Positions 28,489 through 35,566 of a stretch of 61,985 nt of DNA are shown here, one piece after another. The translations under genes and the position numbers were made by a program. This DNA is from an uncultured Moraxellaceae bacterium (GTDB lineage Bacteria > Pseudomonadota > Gammaproteobacteria > Pseudomonadales > Moraxellaceae). The stretch spans positions 1-61,985 of the forward strand of contig CAJXOR010000003.1 of NCBI GenBank assembly GCA_913057715.1, written 5' to 3'. The notes below the pieces were generated by a model. It was not told the DNA's origin and made no database searches. It saw nothing but the letters and a program-made list of their open reading frames with translations. Within the stretch, counting starts at the first letter, position 1; the number at the start of each line of letters is the position of its first letter.

Positions 28489-29781
28489 TTAAAGGATTGC
28501 GTCAGCAGTTCGCTTAGAAGCCTGTGACTGCTCAAAATGAATTAACAACGCACGGGAAACCGCCTTAGGCTGTTCTGCTTGTAGAAAATGTCCACAACGG
28601 GGTAAGTACACCGATCGAACCTGAGTATTGAAGCCTTTTGGCTGCCCCAGTTGTTTGTGCAACTGGATGTTCATGCAGCCATCATCTAGCCCTGCCAGCG
28701 CCAGTGTCGGGAGTGTGACTGGGCTCATCAAGTATCTGGCAGCTTGGCGATTTGCTGAGTGATGAAGGCTCAACAGGGCGCGGTAATAACGCGCTGCCGC
28801 CCATGCAATATCAGGATTACTAAATGCTGTGCGAGCTGGCTCAAATTCAGCGTCACTAAACGACCAACTTGGAGACCATGTTTTCCAGATCCGCTTCACA
28901 TAATTGGCGTTTTGCTTGGACAGCAGATGCTCAGCTTTATTCGACTGCATGACGAGCATATAAGAGGACATGCGCAGCTGCTTAGGCAAGTTCCAAACCG
29001 CGTAAGGCAGTCGAGTTTTTATGGGAATCGGAGGCACGGCGAGTAAGCTCAAGGAAAGCCACGCAGCTGGTTTTAGATTGGCCAACACCATGGCAATCGC
29101 GGCGCCCCAGTCATGACCAACCAAGTGTGCTGATTTAACGTTCAGCGCATCTTTCCACGCCAGCATATCCTCTGCCGCGGGCATAAGACCGTATTGAGCA
29201 TGGCGTTTGGCAGAGTCTGCTGTGTATCCGCGCAGCCACGGCACGAGGACTCGATAACCCGTCTGTACCAGACTTGTAATCACAGCATCCCAACTGCCGA
29301 GCCATGTCCCTGATTGGCGTCCTATATAAGCTCCTAAGACACTTAAAATAGCGGTCGTCAGTGCAATGATTAAACAGGCAACATAAGCATTAACAGCCAA
29401 CAGATTTAACGTAAAGCCTGCTGCCATCGCATCGAGACTGGTAGCTATGGCTAACGACAACAGTGTCTTATGACTTACATTGATCCGAGTATCATCATCG
29501 TTAACCGAACGCGACTCATAGAGCATCTTAATTCCAAGCGCGACCAGTATGACAAAAGCTATCCAAGAAGCCCCTTCAGCAAACCAACCCAGCATGGTAG
29601 AGCCAAGCGCATAACCAATCAGCGGCATCACTCCCTGAGCAACCCCGAAATAGACGCCAATGAGTAACGCCATTTTCATAAACTGCGACTTAACATCGCT
29701 TCTATGCGTTGAACCAAGACCGATTGCAGCCGCAAACGCATCCGCAGCCAGTGCTAACGCCAACAATAGTATTTCTAACAT
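28489..29781 (-). CDS. Chimeric ORF: MntP manganese exporter N-terminus fused to N-truncated epoxide-hydrolase-like alpha/beta hydrolase
   Basis: Residues 1-163 are an MntP-type exporter: repeated Asp-containing helices [11 protein letters not shown] and [13 protein letters not shown], with helices to [10 protein letters not shown]; only about the last 25 residues of MntP are missing. From residue 164 the frame is an alpha/beta hydrolase: [17 protein letters not shown], the nucleophile elbow LVGHDWGAA, an Asp in AGLDDGCM and a late [10 protein letters not shown]. The hydrolase lacks its first strands and the oxyanion HGFP-type loop. The join falls at GSW, a tripeptide natural to both families, near 29290-29301. 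The 430-aa frame is open throughout. Base use shifts at the join, so I read it as the left edge of the acquired island. Neither function is assured; MntP could survive. Confidence 0.8.
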
Positions 29782-29814
29782 AAAAAATAGTACCCTTTAA
29801 GATGTTTTATTCTT

Positions 29815-30117
29815 CTACTTCATATAAGTTTTTAGTATCAACAATACATCTTCTATCTCTTGTTGGCGTTGTTGCTGGGTAATGTCCTCTGCCCCTAGAT
29901 GTTCTCTTATATGCTCTTCTAAAACCTCTTTCATAAGACCGTTTACCGCCCCCTTTAATGCCGCTATTTGCTGCAAAAGAGCCATGCATTCAGGATCGCC
30001 TTCTAATAAAGCTTCTATTGCTACTGACTGACCTTTGATACGTCTGATACGTCTGATACGTCTGATACGTCTGATACGTCCTAGTAGCTTGCTCTTACTT
30101 TTTTGAGTGTGTGAAAT
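29815..30117 (-). CDS. RcnR/DmeR-type Ni/Co-sensing repressor with expanded repeat and ATT start
   Basis: Translating the minus strand from ATT at 30117 gives a 100-aa protein (SHTQKSKSKLLGR... to LILKTYMK) that follows E. coli RcnR throughout. The nickel ligands fit exactly once a 9-residue insertion is removed: His3 after the start, Cys44 (RcnR Cys35), His69 (His60) and His73 (His64). The insertion is a tandem expansion of Arg-Ile-Arg in helix 1, from five 9-bp units at 30037-30081 where relatives have about two. No ATG, GTG or TTG exists at the proper start; ATT occupies the place of Met1, with GAGG 11 nt upstream. The gene may use ATT or be decaying. It is followed after 33 nt by the mntP chimera. 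Confidence 0.85.
   Translation of the reverse strand: MSHTQKSKSKLLGRIRRIRRIRRIRRIKGQSVAIEALLEGDPECMALLQQIAALKGAVNGLMKEVLEEHIREHLGAEDITQQQRQQEIEDVLLILKTYMK
30037..30081. repeat. Five 9-bp tandem repeats inside the rcnR-like gene
   Basis: GATACGTCT is repeated, the last copy ending in C instead of T. In frame on the minus strand this encodes repeated Arg-Ile-Arg. The unit is a multiple of three, so copy-number changes would alter protein length without a frameshift. Confidence 0.95.
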
Positions 30118-30138
30118 TATTTTTATTGCCTCATTTTA

Positions 30139-30153
30139 TACTGGGGGGTAGTA
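30139..30153. promoter_or_regulatory. RcnR operator TACT-G6-N-AGTA
   Basis: The sequence TACTGGGGGGTAGTA is a perfect match to the known RcnR recognition pattern TACT-G6-N-AGTA. It lies between the divergent repressor and dmeF starts and abuts both candidate promoters, so it can control both directions. Confidence 0.9.
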
Positions 30154-30170
30154 TATTTATTAATGATGTT

Positions 30171-30176
30171 TATAAT
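30171..30176 (+). promoter_or_regulatory. Candidate -10 box of dmeF
   Basis: A perfect TATAAT lies 44 nt before the dmeF start. The matching -35 position overlaps the right half of the RcnR operator and is weak, consistent with repression by promoter occlusion. Confidence 0.55.
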
Positions 30177-30220
30177 ACATAAGATTGCCATCTTTTCATA
30201 TATAGCTAGGGATTTAAAAC

Positions 30221-31135
30221 TTGAAAGAATCAACTATTCAGTGGGAACACTCTCATGATTTCGGTGTCGATAGCGCCCAAAACAAATCTAAAGTAAAGAT
30301 TGTATTTTGGTTGACGACGATAATCATGGTTTTAGAGATCGCTGCTGGTACATGGTCTGGCTCTATGGCATTATTTGCTGATGGGTGGCACATGGGCACG
30401 CATTCAGCTGCATTTCTTATCGCTATCTTTGCTTATTCATACGCTAAAAAGAATGCTAATAATAAATCATTTAGTTTTGGTACGGGCAAGGTAAATTATC
30501 TCGGTGGTTTTGCGAGTGCTATTGCATTAGCCATTGTCGCATTATTAATGGTTGTAGAATCAGTCCAACGAATAATAGAGCCAAACAATATATATTTTAA
30601 CGAAGCCATTATCGTGGCTGTTGTCGGTCTAATCGTAAACATAGTGTCGGCATTTATACTTAAAGATGACCATCACCATCATGATCATCATGGCGATTCC
30701 GACCATCATCATGACCATGACCACAATATGAAAGCGGCTTATTTACATGTTTTAGCGGATGCACTCACTTCTGTGCTTGCTATCGTGGCGTTATTAACTG
30801 GTAAATATATGGGCATCATCTGGATTGATCCTGTCATGGGCATTGTCGGTGCAATAGTGATTCTTCACTGGTCTTATGGATTGATCAAAGAATCGAGTAC
30901 CGTGCTTTTAGATAAATCTGTTGATGTTTCAACTTTTGAGAAGATATCGCAGACTCTCGATAAGAGAAATACGATTATTAACGATATTCATGTGTGGAAA
31001 ATAGCGTCAACCCACCAAGCCGCCATTCTTTCAGTGTCCTCACCATCCCCTTTAAGTACGGAAGAATACAAAAAAATATTATCAGAATCTCTACCTCAAA
31101 TTTCTCATGTCTCTGTTGAAATTAATAAAATCTGA
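30221..31135 (+). CDS. dmeF: Cation diffusion facilitator DmeF (Co/Ni efflux)
   Basis: A 304-aa inner-membrane CDF exporter. Six membrane helices are visible; the transport site is formed by Asp54/His57 (FADGWHMGTH) in helix 2 and His176/Asp180 (HVLADALTS) in helix 5. A histidine-rich loop at 149-168, with runs such as DDHHHHDHHGDSDHHHDHD, lies between helices 4 and 5, as in DmeF. The C-terminal cytosolic domain ends at HVSVEINKI. The start is TTG at 30221, with AGGG 9 nt upstream. The divergent RcnR-type repressor and operator strongly support Co/Ni rather than Zn as the main substrate. Confidence 0.88.
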   Translation: MKESTIQWEHSHDFGVDSAQNKSKVKIVFWLTTIIMVLEIAAGTWSGSMALFADGWHMGTHSAAFLIAIFAYSYAKKNANNKSFSFGTGKVNYLGGFASAIALAIVALLMVVESVQRIIEPNNIYFNEAIIVAVVGLIVNIVSAFILKDDHHHHDHHGDSDHHHDHDHNMKAAYLHVLADALTSVLAIVALLTGKYMGIIWIDPVMGIVGAIVILHWSYGLIKESSTVLLDKSVDVSTFEKISQTLDKRNTIINDIHVWKIASTHQAAILSVSSPSPLSTEEYKKILSESLPQISHVSVEINKI

Positions 31136-31187
31136 ATGGGGTGATCTGAATCTAGGAGCGTGCTTTGATAAACCAGTAGCATAGTAA

Positions 31188-31206
31188 GCTTCAGATTATC
31201 TGAAGC
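31188..31206. repeat. Perfect inverted repeat between convergent dmeF and nreB-like genes
   Basis: Nine-base arms GCTTCAGAT and ATCTGAAGC flank a single T, in the 174-nt gap. There is no T-run on either side. It could be a weak terminator or a protein site. Confidence 0.5.
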
Positions 31207-31309
31207 CGTGTATCGTTCATTGGTTTTTGGAAAGAAAGTCCTTAGTGGCACCCTTTTTAAACACCAATGCTTTCGCAATGAAAACCCCTTGTTATATATA
31301 GATTCGACA

Positions 31310-32656
31310 TCAAGAACCTGAACTTGGCCAACGAGGGTGATAGTCATCGACTACGAAAGGATGGGTATGGCGTATGCCGTTAGGTGTAGGAGATCCAGTA
31401 GCATGGACATGACCTTCTGGCAAATTCGAATGCTCGTGTTCAATCTCTTTTAAGTCAATAGATGGCCAGACTCTAAAAGCCGCCCATACCGCTAGTGCAG
31501 CCGCACAGCCTAATACCGCAAAAGCTACGGTCATACTGTAGCGAGCACCCAACCAACCCGCTAACGGATAAAATACCAACCAACTGACATGAGACAAAGC
31601 AAACTGAGCGGCAAACAGTGCTGGGCGATCTTCTTGATGTGAGGAACGCCATAACAAGCGTCCAGAAGGGGTTTGAGCAGCAGAATAACCCAAACCTAGC
31701 ACGAACCATAAGACCATGAGCGAGTTTTGTCCCATCATCACTGTTCCAGCGAACATCCCCACCACCAACAACCCCACGCCACTCAACATGACACTACGGT
31801 CTGTCAGCTTAACCAGTAAGCTTGGCAAAGCCAATGCAGCAATCATAGAACCAGCACCGAAGCTTGCCAATGCTAATGCCACTGCGCTCTGAGTGAGTCC
31901 CATGCCACCCTGAATAATCACCACTGTATTCACAAAGACCATAGACGCTGCGGCAGACACAGCAACATTGACCGCGAGTAATCCGCGCAGTCGAGGGGTG
32001 GCTAAATAGATTCGAATGCCGCGTGTGGTTCTATCATAAATGCTACGGCGCGCGGGCATAGCATGCGCGGGTAGCGTGACCGACACGACCAATATGGCAG
32101 ACGCTAAAAATCCCAGTACCGTCCCCGTAAACAGATTGTGGAAGCTCATTACTGTCAGCAATGCTGCTGCTAACATGGGACTGACCAGACTTTCCATATC
32201 GTACGCGAGGCGTGAAAGCGATAAGGCTTTGGTGTAATCCTGCTCATCAGGTAGAACGTCAGGAATAGTGGCTTGAAAAGTCGGCGTGAATGCTGCTGAG
32301 GCGGCTTGCAATACAAAGATCAGCACGTAAATTTCCCAGATTTGGGAGACAAAGGGCAGTAGCAGAGCGACACCTGCTCGTATCACATCCAGCGTTACCA
32401 GCATGGTACGTTTAGGCAGCCGCTCGGCAAAGGCCGCTGCAATGGGTGCTACGCCAACATAGGCAATCATTTTGATGGCCAATGCGGTTCCCATAACGAC
32501 CCCAGCGTTATTACCTGCCAAATCAAAAGCTAGTAGCCCAAGCGCCACAGTAGCTAAACCTGTGCCAATCAGGGCAATCACTTGCGCGGCAAATAAATGA
32601 CGATAAGTTCGATTTGCAAAGATACTAAGCACGGAGTGTCTCTTCAGGTCAGTCAA
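31310..32656 (-). CDS. NreB-like MFS nickel exporter with His-rich C terminus
   Basis: A 448-aa major-facilitator protein with 12 predicted helices, beginning ANRTYRHLFAAQVIALIGTG, and the MFS loop-2/3 motif AERLPKRTM. The last 45 residues are histidine-rich (EHEHSNLPEGHVHATG, IRHTHPFVVDDYHP), a feature of NreB/NrsD nickel exporters. The start is TTG at 32656, with AAGG 4 nt upstream. It is 6 nt downstream of a CsoR-type repressor gene and next to HupE/UreJ genes, so nickel or cobalt efflux is the likely job. Confirmation would need metal assays. Confidence 0.8.
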   Translation of the reverse strand: MTDLKRHSVLSIFANRTYRHLFAAQVIALIGTGLATVALGLLAFDLAGNNAGVVMGTALAIKMIAYVGVAPIAAAFAERLPKRTMLVTLDVIRAGVALLLPFVSQIWEIYVLIFVLQAASAAFTPTFQATIPDVLPDEQDYTKALSLSRLAYDMESLVSPMLAAALLTVMSFHNLFTGTVLGFLASAILVVSVTLPAHAMPARRSIYDRTTRGIRIYLATPRLRGLLAVNVAVSAAASMVFVNTVVIIQGGMGLTQSAVALALASFGAGSMIAALALPSLLVKLTDRSVMLSGVGLLVVGMFAGTVMMGQNSLMVLWFVLGLGYSAAQTPSGRLLWRSSHQEDRPALFAAQFALSHVSWLVFYPLAGWLGARYSMTVAFAVLGCAAALAVWAAFRVWPSIDLKEIEHEHSNLPEGHVHATGSPTPNGIRHTHPFVVDDYHPRWPSSGS

Positions 32657-32662
32657 CTAACC

Positions 32663-32941
32663 TTATAGGTAACGAGTTATTTCCTTGAACTCCTCGATAG
32701 AATTCTGCTGATCTTTATCAACAGACCCTAGCAAGTCTTCAAGGCAATGATCCAAATGGTCTTGAATTAAAATTTTCTTGGCTTGATGAATGGCATTCTC
32801 GACCGCTTGCAGTTGCTGTGCTATATCAAGACAAGTTCGACCCGCAACCAACATCTCTATTGTACTACTTAGATGTCCATTCGCTTTTTTGAGGCGTGTG
32901 ATAACGGCTGGGTGAGACTCATGAATGTGTGGTTTTTTCAT
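32663..32941 (-). CDS. CsoR/RcnR-family metal-sensing repressor
   Basis: A 92-aa all-helical repressor. It carries Cys37, His62 and Cys66 (GRTCLDI, QDHLDHCLE), the Cys-His-Cys set of CsoR-type sensors, plus N-terminal His5, His7 and His10 that could add Ni/Co ligands. It heads the operon with the nreB-like gene and faces hupE across a 261-nt gap that holds a palindromic candidate operator. It differs from the RcnR-type gene at 29815, so the island has two independent metal sensors. Confidence 0.85.
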   Translation of the reverse strand: MKKPHIHESHPAVITRLKKANGHLSSTIEMLVAGRTCLDIAQQLQAVENAIHQAKKILIQDHLDHCLEDLLGSVDKDQQNSIEEFKEITRYL

Positions 32942-33010
32942 AATGGAAATATCTTTTCTCTAGGGAGCATTATTATACCTCATAGAAAACTTAAACTTTT
33001 CATTGACCTT

Positions 33011-33027
33011 ATCCCCACCTAGGGGAT
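33011..33027. promoter_or_regulatory. Candidate CsoR-type operator
   Basis: ATCCCC and GGGGAT arms around ACCTA form a GC-rich inverted repeat (ATCCCCACCTAGGGGAT) inside an AT-rich gap, between the repressor and hupE. G-tract inverted repeats are typical operators for this repressor family. The match is inferred, not a known consensus. Confidence 0.5.
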
Positions 33028-33202
33028 ATCATCCTACTCCTTAGTTATTCGTTTTGCATTTAAAATTTTCATGATTTTAAGTATTACTCTATAAAGAAGC
33101 ACTTAGTTATGAAAACCATAATGCCTTCTTTGACTGATATCAGAAGTTTTAATGGTATTACCTACACCGCGTATCCACTATTCTCACATCATAGGAATCC
33201 TA

Positions 33203-33943
33203 ATGCACAGCTATGTCTACAATAGGCTTCCAAGATCGCCATGGGCGACTTGGCAGACCCGTCTGCTATTGTTCTCAGCACTTCTTATTTATCTTCTTAC
33301 TGGTAGTAGTGAAGCTTTGGCTCACGCGGTAACCGCGGGAGACAAAGGCTATATTCAGGAAATTTCAGGGGTTAATATCTTACCCTTTATGTACTTGGGT
33401 GCTAAACATATGATCACGGGATATGACCACATCCTGTTTCTCTTTGGGGTTATCTTTTTTCTCTACCGTATGAAGCACATCGGCATCTATGTGAGCTTAT
33501 TTGCGTTAGGTCATTCCACAACGATGATCTTAGGCGTGTACTTTAACATCGGTATGAACAGCTATCTGATTGATGCCATTATTGGCCTCTCTGTTGTTTA
33601 CAAAGCTTTAGACAATATTGGTGCGTATCAAAGGTGGTTCGGGTATCAACCAAATACCAAAATAGCGGTGCTAATCTTTGGTCTTTTCCACGGCTTTGGG
33701 TTATCAACTAAGCTCCTTGAATATGAGATGTCGCCTGACGGCCTGCTACCTAATTTGCTTGCATTTAACGTGGGTGTGGAGATTGGGCAGTTACTGGCTC
33801 TAGCAATCATATTAATTGGCATGAGCTATTGGCGTCGTACGCTAAGTTTCATCCGTAACGCCTATACCGCCAACGTCGCCATGATGAGCGCAGGATTTAT
33901 TTTAGTGGGCATGCAGCTCACTGGCTATTTAATGTCTTCTTAA
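33203..33943 (+). CDS. HupE/UreJ-family metal transporter
   Basis: A 246-aa membrane protein with a cleavable-looking N-terminal hydrophobic segment ending ...SEALAHA, then about six helices. HMITGYDHILFLFGVIFFL and LGHSTTMILG are the HupE/UreJ_2 signatures with conserved His and Asp; GLFHGFGLSTKLLE follows. HupE/UreJ proteins are secondary nickel/cobalt permeases. I chose the ATG at 33203 because AGGA lies 8 nt upstream; the upstream ATG at 33152 has none. It is followed after 16 nt by its usual partner gene. Confidence 0.85.
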   Translation: MHSYVYNRLPRSPWATWQTRLLLFSALLIYLLTGSSEALAHAVTAGDKGYIQEISGVNILPFMYLGAKHMITGYDHILFLFGVIFFLYRMKHIGIYVSLFALGHSTTMILGVYFNIGMNSYLIDAIIGLSVVYKALDNIGAYQRWFGYQPNTKIAVLIFGLFHGFGLSTKLLEYEMSPDGLLPNLLAFNVGVEIGQLLALAIILIGMSYWRRTLSFIRNAYTANVAMMSAGFILVGMQLTGYLMSS

Positions 33944-33959
33944 TTCAAGGATTCCCAAT

Positions 33960-34583
33960 ATGTATAACAGTGACACCCCACTACAAGCTGAACTTCCCAC
34001 TTCAAAGCAGCTTATAAAATCTACTGTTCTGGCCGCAATCGCAGCAGTGGTTCTTTTATTTACGGTGGTTCTCCCCGCTGAATATGGTATCGACCCTACT
34101 GGGGTTGGTAGTATTCTTCAATTGACAGAAATGGGACAGGTTAAGCAGCAATTGGCAGATGAAGCTGCCGCCGATGCGGCTGGTTTACTAGTAGCTGAAA
34201 CACCAAGTATAGATAATGTGGCCGAACAAGCAGTGAGTACCACACTTTCTGACACTGCTGTCGCTAGTGGTGAATGGCGTGATGAAATTCCCTTCACCTT
34301 GACGCCAGGTGAAGGATTAGAGATTAAAATGAAAATGGATTCAGGTGGCAAGGCTGAATACTCTTGGGTCGTGGCAGGTGGTGATTTGAACTTTGATACC
34401 CATGGCGATGCATTAGGCAAGGCCATCAGTTATGAGAAAGGTCGCGGAGTTGCCGCTGATGAAGGCGTTCTAGAAGCTGCATTCACAGGCAATCACGGCT
34501 GGTTTTGGCGCAATCGTGGTGATTCAGATGTTGAAGTTATTCTGCGTACCCGTGGCGATTACAGCACTATTAAAACGATGTAA
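33960..34583 (+). CDS. Transmembrane anchor protein, partner of HupE/UreJ
   Basis: A 207-aa protein with one membrane helix near residues 22-40 (STVLAAIAAVVLLFTVVLP) and an exported C-terminal domain containing EIPFTLTPGEGLEIKMKM and AAFTGNHGWFWRNRGD. From memory, proteins of this type sit next to HupE/UreJ in metal-resistance islands of Acinetobacter and relatives and are annotated only as transmembrane anchor proteins. The domain looks like a beta-sandwich sensor or chaperone, but its biochemical role is not known to me. Confidence 0.75.
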   Translation: MYNSDTPLQAELPTSKQLIKSTVLAAIAAVVLLFTVVLPAEYGIDPTGVGSILQLTEMGQVKQQLADEAAADAAGLLVAETPSIDNVAEQAVSTTLSDTAVASGEWRDEIPFTLTPGEGLEIKMKMDSGGKAEYSWVVAGGDLNFDTHGDALGKAISYEKGRGVAADEGVLEAAFTGNHGWFWRNRGDSDVEVILRTRGDYSTIKTM

Positions 34584-34658
34584 AGAAAGTAGTGGTTAGT
34601 TCTTGCCGTACTATCTAATTGAAAACAGAGCTGTCTCACTAAGATTATAGCAACCAGC

Positions 34659-34715
34659 TAAATAAACTTAATCCTCGCATTAGAACATAAGTGGTCTAAT
34701 GCGAGGACTTATTTA
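34659..34715. repeat. Large imperfect inverted repeat after the HupE operon
   Basis: Perfect 12-base inner arms at 34673-34684 (CCTCGCATTAGA) and 34695-34706 surround a 10-base loop. Outer arms TAAATAA / TTATTTA extend it. There is no T-run, so it is not a classic terminator. It lies between the convergent membrane-anchor and DUF6122 genes. Confidence 0.75.
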
Positions 34716-34806
34716 GGATTGGATAGCGATGTATACATGCTACTTCTAGGAGTTATTGAAGAGGTGATCTATAAGAGAAGCACAAAGGGACGTAGTCACA
34801 GCCGTA

Positions 34807-35196
34807 TCAAAACTTAGTGGCTCTGGCAAGCCACGCTACCAAATCACGGGCAGGAGCCTCAACCAAACACTGCGGACAATTAAGATAGGTCATCACGCAA
34901 TCATTTAAATCAGTTAGCGTATGTAGTAATAATCCCAAACCAATTATTTTATAGGGCTTAGGTAGAAACAACATAACTGCATATACTACCATTGCATAAT
35001 AAGTATGGAGTGGATGAAAATTGATACTACAGCGATCGGGCGAGAAAATAGGCGTAGCTATCAAATGATCTAGATCCACCAGCATAGTGGCTAACAAGAT
35101 CAAATATACGCGTTTATAGTCATTACGAAAAAATGTATAGGCGATGATCAACGGCATGCCAAAGTGTAGAAAATAATGGATAACAACTTGAATCAT
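34807..35196 (-). CDS. DUF6122-like membrane protein
   Basis: A 129-aa hydrophobic protein with about four helices. The stretch LLATMLVDLDHLIATPIF and SINFHPLHTYYAMVV place conserved Asp and His residues at membrane edges, resembling metal-dependent membrane hydrolases of the DUF457/YdjM type. The DUF6122 assignment is from memory. The C terminus ends with a Cys pair (NCPQC). It is often seen as cargo near metal-resistance genes; function unknown. Confidence 0.65.
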   Translation of the reverse strand: MIQVVIHYFLHFGMPLIIAYTFFRNDYKRVYLILLATMLVDLDHLIATPIFSPDRCSINFHPLHTYYAMVVYAVMLFLPKPYKIIGLGLLLHTLTDLNDCVMTYLNCPQCLVEAPARDLVAWLARATKF

Positions 35197-35566
35197 CGTT
35201 TTTTCCGATTTAAGATAGTTTGTAATGGCTCATCAATCTCAGATAAAACATAAGATATTTTTTTCTTTAGAGTGCATGTGAAACATATGCATCATACACT
35301 CACTCTCTCATTATTGTACCTGTACAAAAAATCACTAGTTAATATAGGGTATACCCTAAGAGAACCATCAAAAAGGCTTCAAAAACCTATTAATAGACCA
35401 CTTAAAATAGACTGGTATAATGGAACCACTTATAACAGATTATAAAAGTACCTATGTTTGTCAAAACATATTTGAAAAATACGACTAAACAGCTATCTAC
35501 CTAACCCAAACTTATAATTAAATCAACTTCCGAGAGTATATAGTTCCACGAGATTTAGTCAGAACC
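35197..35566. promoter_or_regulatory. 370-nt AT-rich gap with two perfect palindromes
   Basis: No gene is seen. Two palindromes lie close together: TTGTACCTGTACAA at 35314-35327 (six-base arms, CT centre) and TAGGGTATACCCTA at 35345-35358 (14-base perfect). They lie 120-160 nt upstream of the DUF6122 start and could be operators of this gene. I cannot name a regulator for them. Confidence 0.5.

Follow-up and report, generated by a model that had tools for sequence, protein, structure and literature searches.

The dmeR-like gene in the 61,985-nucleotide stretch of Moraxellaceae DNA analysed here (the window) is probably the decaying repressor gene of a second, horizontally acquired dmeRF Ni/Co efflux divergon. 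Two changes separate it from its orthologues, the in-frame growth of a 9-bp tandem repeat within the DNA-contact helix and the loss of the canonical start codon, and both lie beside an intact operator and an intact efflux gene (Table 1).

Table 1. Positions of the dmeRF divergon and neighbouring features in the window
Feature	Position	Strand	Basis or comparison
mntP homologue, 3′ end replaced by truncated alpha/beta hydrolase, in-frame chimera	28489..29781	-	junction ~29289
Block homologous to Psychrobacter DNA, ~85-90% in pieces; acquired metal-efflux island	29289..35432 (end approximate)	.	homology, GC
dmeR-like frame, CsoR/RcnR/FrmR family (PF02583), 100 codons + stop	29815..30117	-	PF02583 E=1.1e-17
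Five perfect 9-bp copies, coding strand CGTATCAGA, Arg-Ile-Arg	30036..30080	-	orthologues: 2 or 3
ATT codon where orthologues L007, L008, L009 have ATG start	30115..30117	-	orthologue comparison
GAGG Shine-Dalgarno-like tract, retained, 11 nt before ATT	30129..30132	-	sequence; identical in L008
RcnR-type operator TACT-GGGGGG-T-AGTA, dmeR/dmeF intergenic	30139..30153	+	identical to consensus; predicted
dmeF, CDF-family Co/Ni efflux transporter, His-rich loop, intact	30221..31135	+	NCBIfam NF033827 388 bits, cut-off 250

The RcnR-type family membership proposed in a first-pass annotation is borne out by the Pfam match, which covers residues 21-95 of the window protein and scores 64.7 bits against a cut-off of 22.8. 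The protein falls below the thresholds of two narrower models, with 71.7 bits against a curated 138 for the E. coli RcnR equivalog NF011613 and 93.9 against 133 for the FrmR equivalog. Aligned with 23 homologues, it shows one clean insertion, nine residues long, that falls between positions 13 and 14 of the unexpanded protein. This 24-sequence alignment confirms two further claims of the annotation, namely that the array adds nine residues in frame to helix 1, which contacts DNA, and that subtracting nine restores the RcnR numbering of Cys35, His60 and His64: window H3, C44, H69 and H73 correspond to H3, C35, H60 and H64, all of them invariant. With the nine residues removed, the positions of His3, Glu34, Cys35, His60, Glu63 and His64 are those of DmeR/RcnR, and the gene shares with this family the PF02583 profile, the TACT-G6-N-AGTA site and adjacency to dmeF. 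Unlike its members, it lacks a canonical start and carries the extra residues in helix 1.

The array comprises 5.0 copies of TGATACGTC with 100% matches and, with a TRF score of 90, outscores every other tandem repeat in the window. Read on the minus strand, the sequence across it is GRIRRIRRIRRIRRIKGQ, in the dmeR-like frame. We discounted a gene on the opposite strand, as no plus-strand ORF of 50 aa or more crosses the array, and likewise an operator-like or hairpin element, as the repeats are direct only and neither an inverted repeat nor a terminator overlaps them.

Comparison of copy number in related strains, a check put forward in the first-pass annotation, revealed differences between species. 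The orthologues from Psychrobacter sp. Choline-02u-9 (L007/L036) and the Psychrobacter sp. M13 plasmid NZ_CP132195.1 (L008) are 92-95% identical at the protein level to the window protein in its 2-copy form and have the same operator; unlike the window, both have two copies and an ATG start. The island genes that follow dmeF are common to the window and the former, and mntP and dmeF to the window and the latter, although the M13 dmeF is frameshifted. The dmeR of G247 (L009, Psychrobacter genus group) contains the window's own repeat unit at three copies, with an ATG start and an intact frame, and the window has five. Two copies are indeed the usual state, as the annotation supposed: the short form occurs in nearly all homologues examined, more than 50 further ones among them. 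A degenerate search for at least three R-[IV]-R units before GQ matched the window alone among 369 genomes sampled from the class, and only the window and G247 among 346 sampled from the family (~700 Gammaproteobacteria in all), which speaks against an array that is fixed and widely shared. No expanded array was found in viral contigs, and our literature search on repeat expansion in rcnR, or on rcnR mutants in adaptive evolution, returned nothing relevant. The window expansion is far beyond chance.

In L007, the ancestral-type codons amount to a perfect 9-bp direct repeat even without any expansion. The DNA-contacting part of the ancestral helix 1, Arg-Ile-Arg-Arg-Ile-Lys, would thus have been encoded by codons that by chance made a 2-copy direct repeat. 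Such a repeat would be a natural slippage substrate, and strand slippage at this pre-existing pair probably drove the in-frame growth to five copies that the comparison reveals. Pairwise dmeR differences are star-like and do not single out the window and G247 as sisters through a common expansion; on these sequences, the pattern would fit either one or two expansion events.

The first-pass annotation also placed a gene at 29815-30117. The expansion within it is real, but a canonical start is absent, and 30117, taken as its end coordinate, is the first base of the ATT codon. We found no ATG, GTG or TTG before the repeat in this frame, whose first in-frame ATG (29985) lies downstream of it. Where a functional DmeR would have a canonical start for the full-length frame, the window gene has ATT, and apart from this codon the bases around it match those of L008. 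The same comparison shows the ATG-to-ATT change, a step separate from the expansion. This kind of switch was seen once in 61,358 reconstructed AUG starts (PMC5622118). Non-canonical starts are repressed by IF3, and E. coli infC has a proven ATT start (PMC5472188). Weak initiation at the window ATT may occur, and as a consequence of the start codon change the cell probably makes very little of the protein, if any.

Any protein that is made is unlikely to function normally. The metal ligands of RcnR include the N-terminal amine and His3, and metal binding orders the N-terminus and restricts the DNA contacts of Arg14 and Lys17 (PMC7055735). The window repeat covers the equivalents of Arg14-Lys17, which would leave a 5-copy protein with little prospect of working normally. 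By helix geometry, nine added residues amount to a rise of 13.5 Å and a turn of 180 degrees (three residues, -60 degrees), so the added units are out of register. Helix 1 would be lengthened and rotated by these amounts, and the N-terminal amine/His3 ligands and the R14/R17 DNA contacts would be expected to leave their normal frame. The AlphaFold model of the 2-copy orthologue (mean pLDDT 90.3, pTM 0.76) superposes over its full length on FrmR, InrS and CsoR (for FrmR, Z 10.1 over 89 residues). The 5-copy window model (mean pLDDT 83.1, pTM 0.51) has one long helix at residues 2-38 and matches FrmR over residues 40-100 only (Z 5.8), with the helix-1 superposition lost; this model draws on the alignment of 24 sequences, where the insertion is present in the window protein alone, and its lengthened helix is weak evidence.

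These features bear directly on whether dmeR still works, with low-level translation from the ATT or an upstream ATA yielding a lengthened regulator of altered operator affinity or metal set point. We consider this unlikely. The frame is open, the Shine-Dalgarno tract, the operator and all metal-ligand residues are kept, pairwise dN/dS is low and infC uses ATT, all in favour of a working gene, but ATG-to-ATT switches are almost never kept, the +9 insertion reverses the phase of the helix, and the predicted 5-copy fold does not superpose on FrmR in helix 1.

The first-pass annotation went further and interpreted the array as a tunable or phase-variable metal switch, a view that found no support, given the lost start, the broken helix register and the damaged contexts of both expanded alleles. 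Selection on copy number at such a contingency locus would agree with the 2, 2, 3 and 5 copies of the four orthologues and with a perfect repeat as slippage substrate. However, 9-bp steps leave the frame unshifted and allow no ON/OFF control by frameshift, the 5-copy allele has no start codon, the 3-copy allele is orphaned from dmeF, and arrays of at least three units are absent from all other sampled genomes, making a contingency locus very improbable. It seems equally doubtful that, in Moraxellaceae mobile metal islands at large, a 9-bp array in the DNA-contact motif of the repressor grows and shrinks to give heritable, graded Ni/Co set points, with the start-codon change as a second step lowering repressor expression. 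An acquired efflux pair with its repressor in decay is the simplest account, and a tunable switch has no specific support.

Could the ATT, the copy number or both instead be sequencing or assembly errors? The source assembly is a draft of 131 contigs, one of which has an adapter-like end. Against an error, a single short read can span the 45-bp array, the start differs by a plain substitution beside an intact dmeF frame, and the 3-copy allele comes from a separate near-complete genome (G247). We regard this explanation as quite improbable.

The genomic setting is in line with a decaying repressor. In much of the first 2 kb of the acquired block, GC is below that of the DNA to its left. The host genome has another intact dmeRF, with a normal ATG, on contig C9 (G000:C9), so the window dmeRF is a second copy, a status that would relax selection on the window repressor. 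Window dmeF is divergent from dmeR and constrained, with an open frame and a dN/dS of 0.17 against L068. The operator follows the RcnR consensus, TACT-G6-N-AGTA (PMC7055735); one is recognisable in the window, compared with two at E. coli rcnA-rcnR, and in Rhizobiaceae dmeR and dmeF form one operon (PMC9820535) rather than a divergent pair. If little or no repressor is made, this intact operator would be left unoccupied and window dmeF is probably derepressed, unless the native DmeR from the other contig cross-binds.

The substitution pattern of dmeR may reflect a recent change. Window-private changes comprise three nonsynonymous (the start codon and Ser-to-Leu replacements at residues 28 and 84) and two synonymous, compared with nonsynonymous:synonymous ratios of 3:9, 4:9 and 1:3 for the three remaining lineages; these counts are too small for significance and are consistent with recent relaxation. 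Because no stop interrupts the dmeR frame and its pairwise dN/dS is 0.05-0.09, any loss is recent.

Related loci are damaged too. The G247 genome has no close DmeF (best match 32% identity), a YnfA-like gene, assigned by eye, occupies the place of dmeF, and the operator is altered to a G8 tract with TAGCATA. In Psychrobacter sp. WY6 (G310), dmeR is cut at the repeat by an IS3-type element, whose transposase ORFs were recognised by eye, and the N-terminal part is gone. The M13 plasmid divergon (L066:14016-15349) is the reverse of the window, with dmeF frameshifted and the 2-copy dmeR intact.

Several lines of evidence thus argue for decay: a rare ATG-to-ATT switch, to a non-canonical start of the kind repressed by IF3, behind a retained Shine-Dalgarno tract; the window-private substitution ratio; the loss of the full-length FrmR match in the 5-copy model; a second intact dmeRF in the host; and the damage to WY6 dmeR, M13 dmeF and G247 dmeF and operator. 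Against it stand the open frame, the low dN/dS, the infC ATT start, the small number of private substitutions, the G247 3-copy allele with its ATG and intact frame, and the weakness of the AlphaFold evidence. If the decay reading is true, the locus is an example of an acquired efflux divergon that keeps its pump as its repressor is lost, and of codons that, chosen by chance for a repetitive basic motif, seed slippage in a DNA-contact helix. The alleles of two, three and five copies form a natural series on the helix register that couples metal binding to DNA release in the CsoR/RcnR/FrmR family.

A number of further features were seen in and around the island. Homology to Psychrobacter mntP ends at 29289 in all three copies compared, marking the edge of the acquired block. 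The start codon of window dmeF is TTG, compared with GTG in relatives, and both divergent genes have weaker starts than their relatives. The ORF at the start of contig C9 (L070:11-739) has an adapter-like protein end, presumably a translated Illumina Nextera adapter left on the contig end. Downstream of dmeF, a second DUF156 regulator (32663-32941) adjoins an MFS transporter (31310-32656) whose C-terminus is His-rich, and a HupE/UreJ-type protein (33152-33943) follows; this region, 31310-33943, is more of the metal island and is syntenic with L068. Finally, 95 bp at 35349-35443 match L068 and the M13 plasmid in inverse orientation, where they lie just upstream of a recombinase gene, and are a possible res or transposon-end site.
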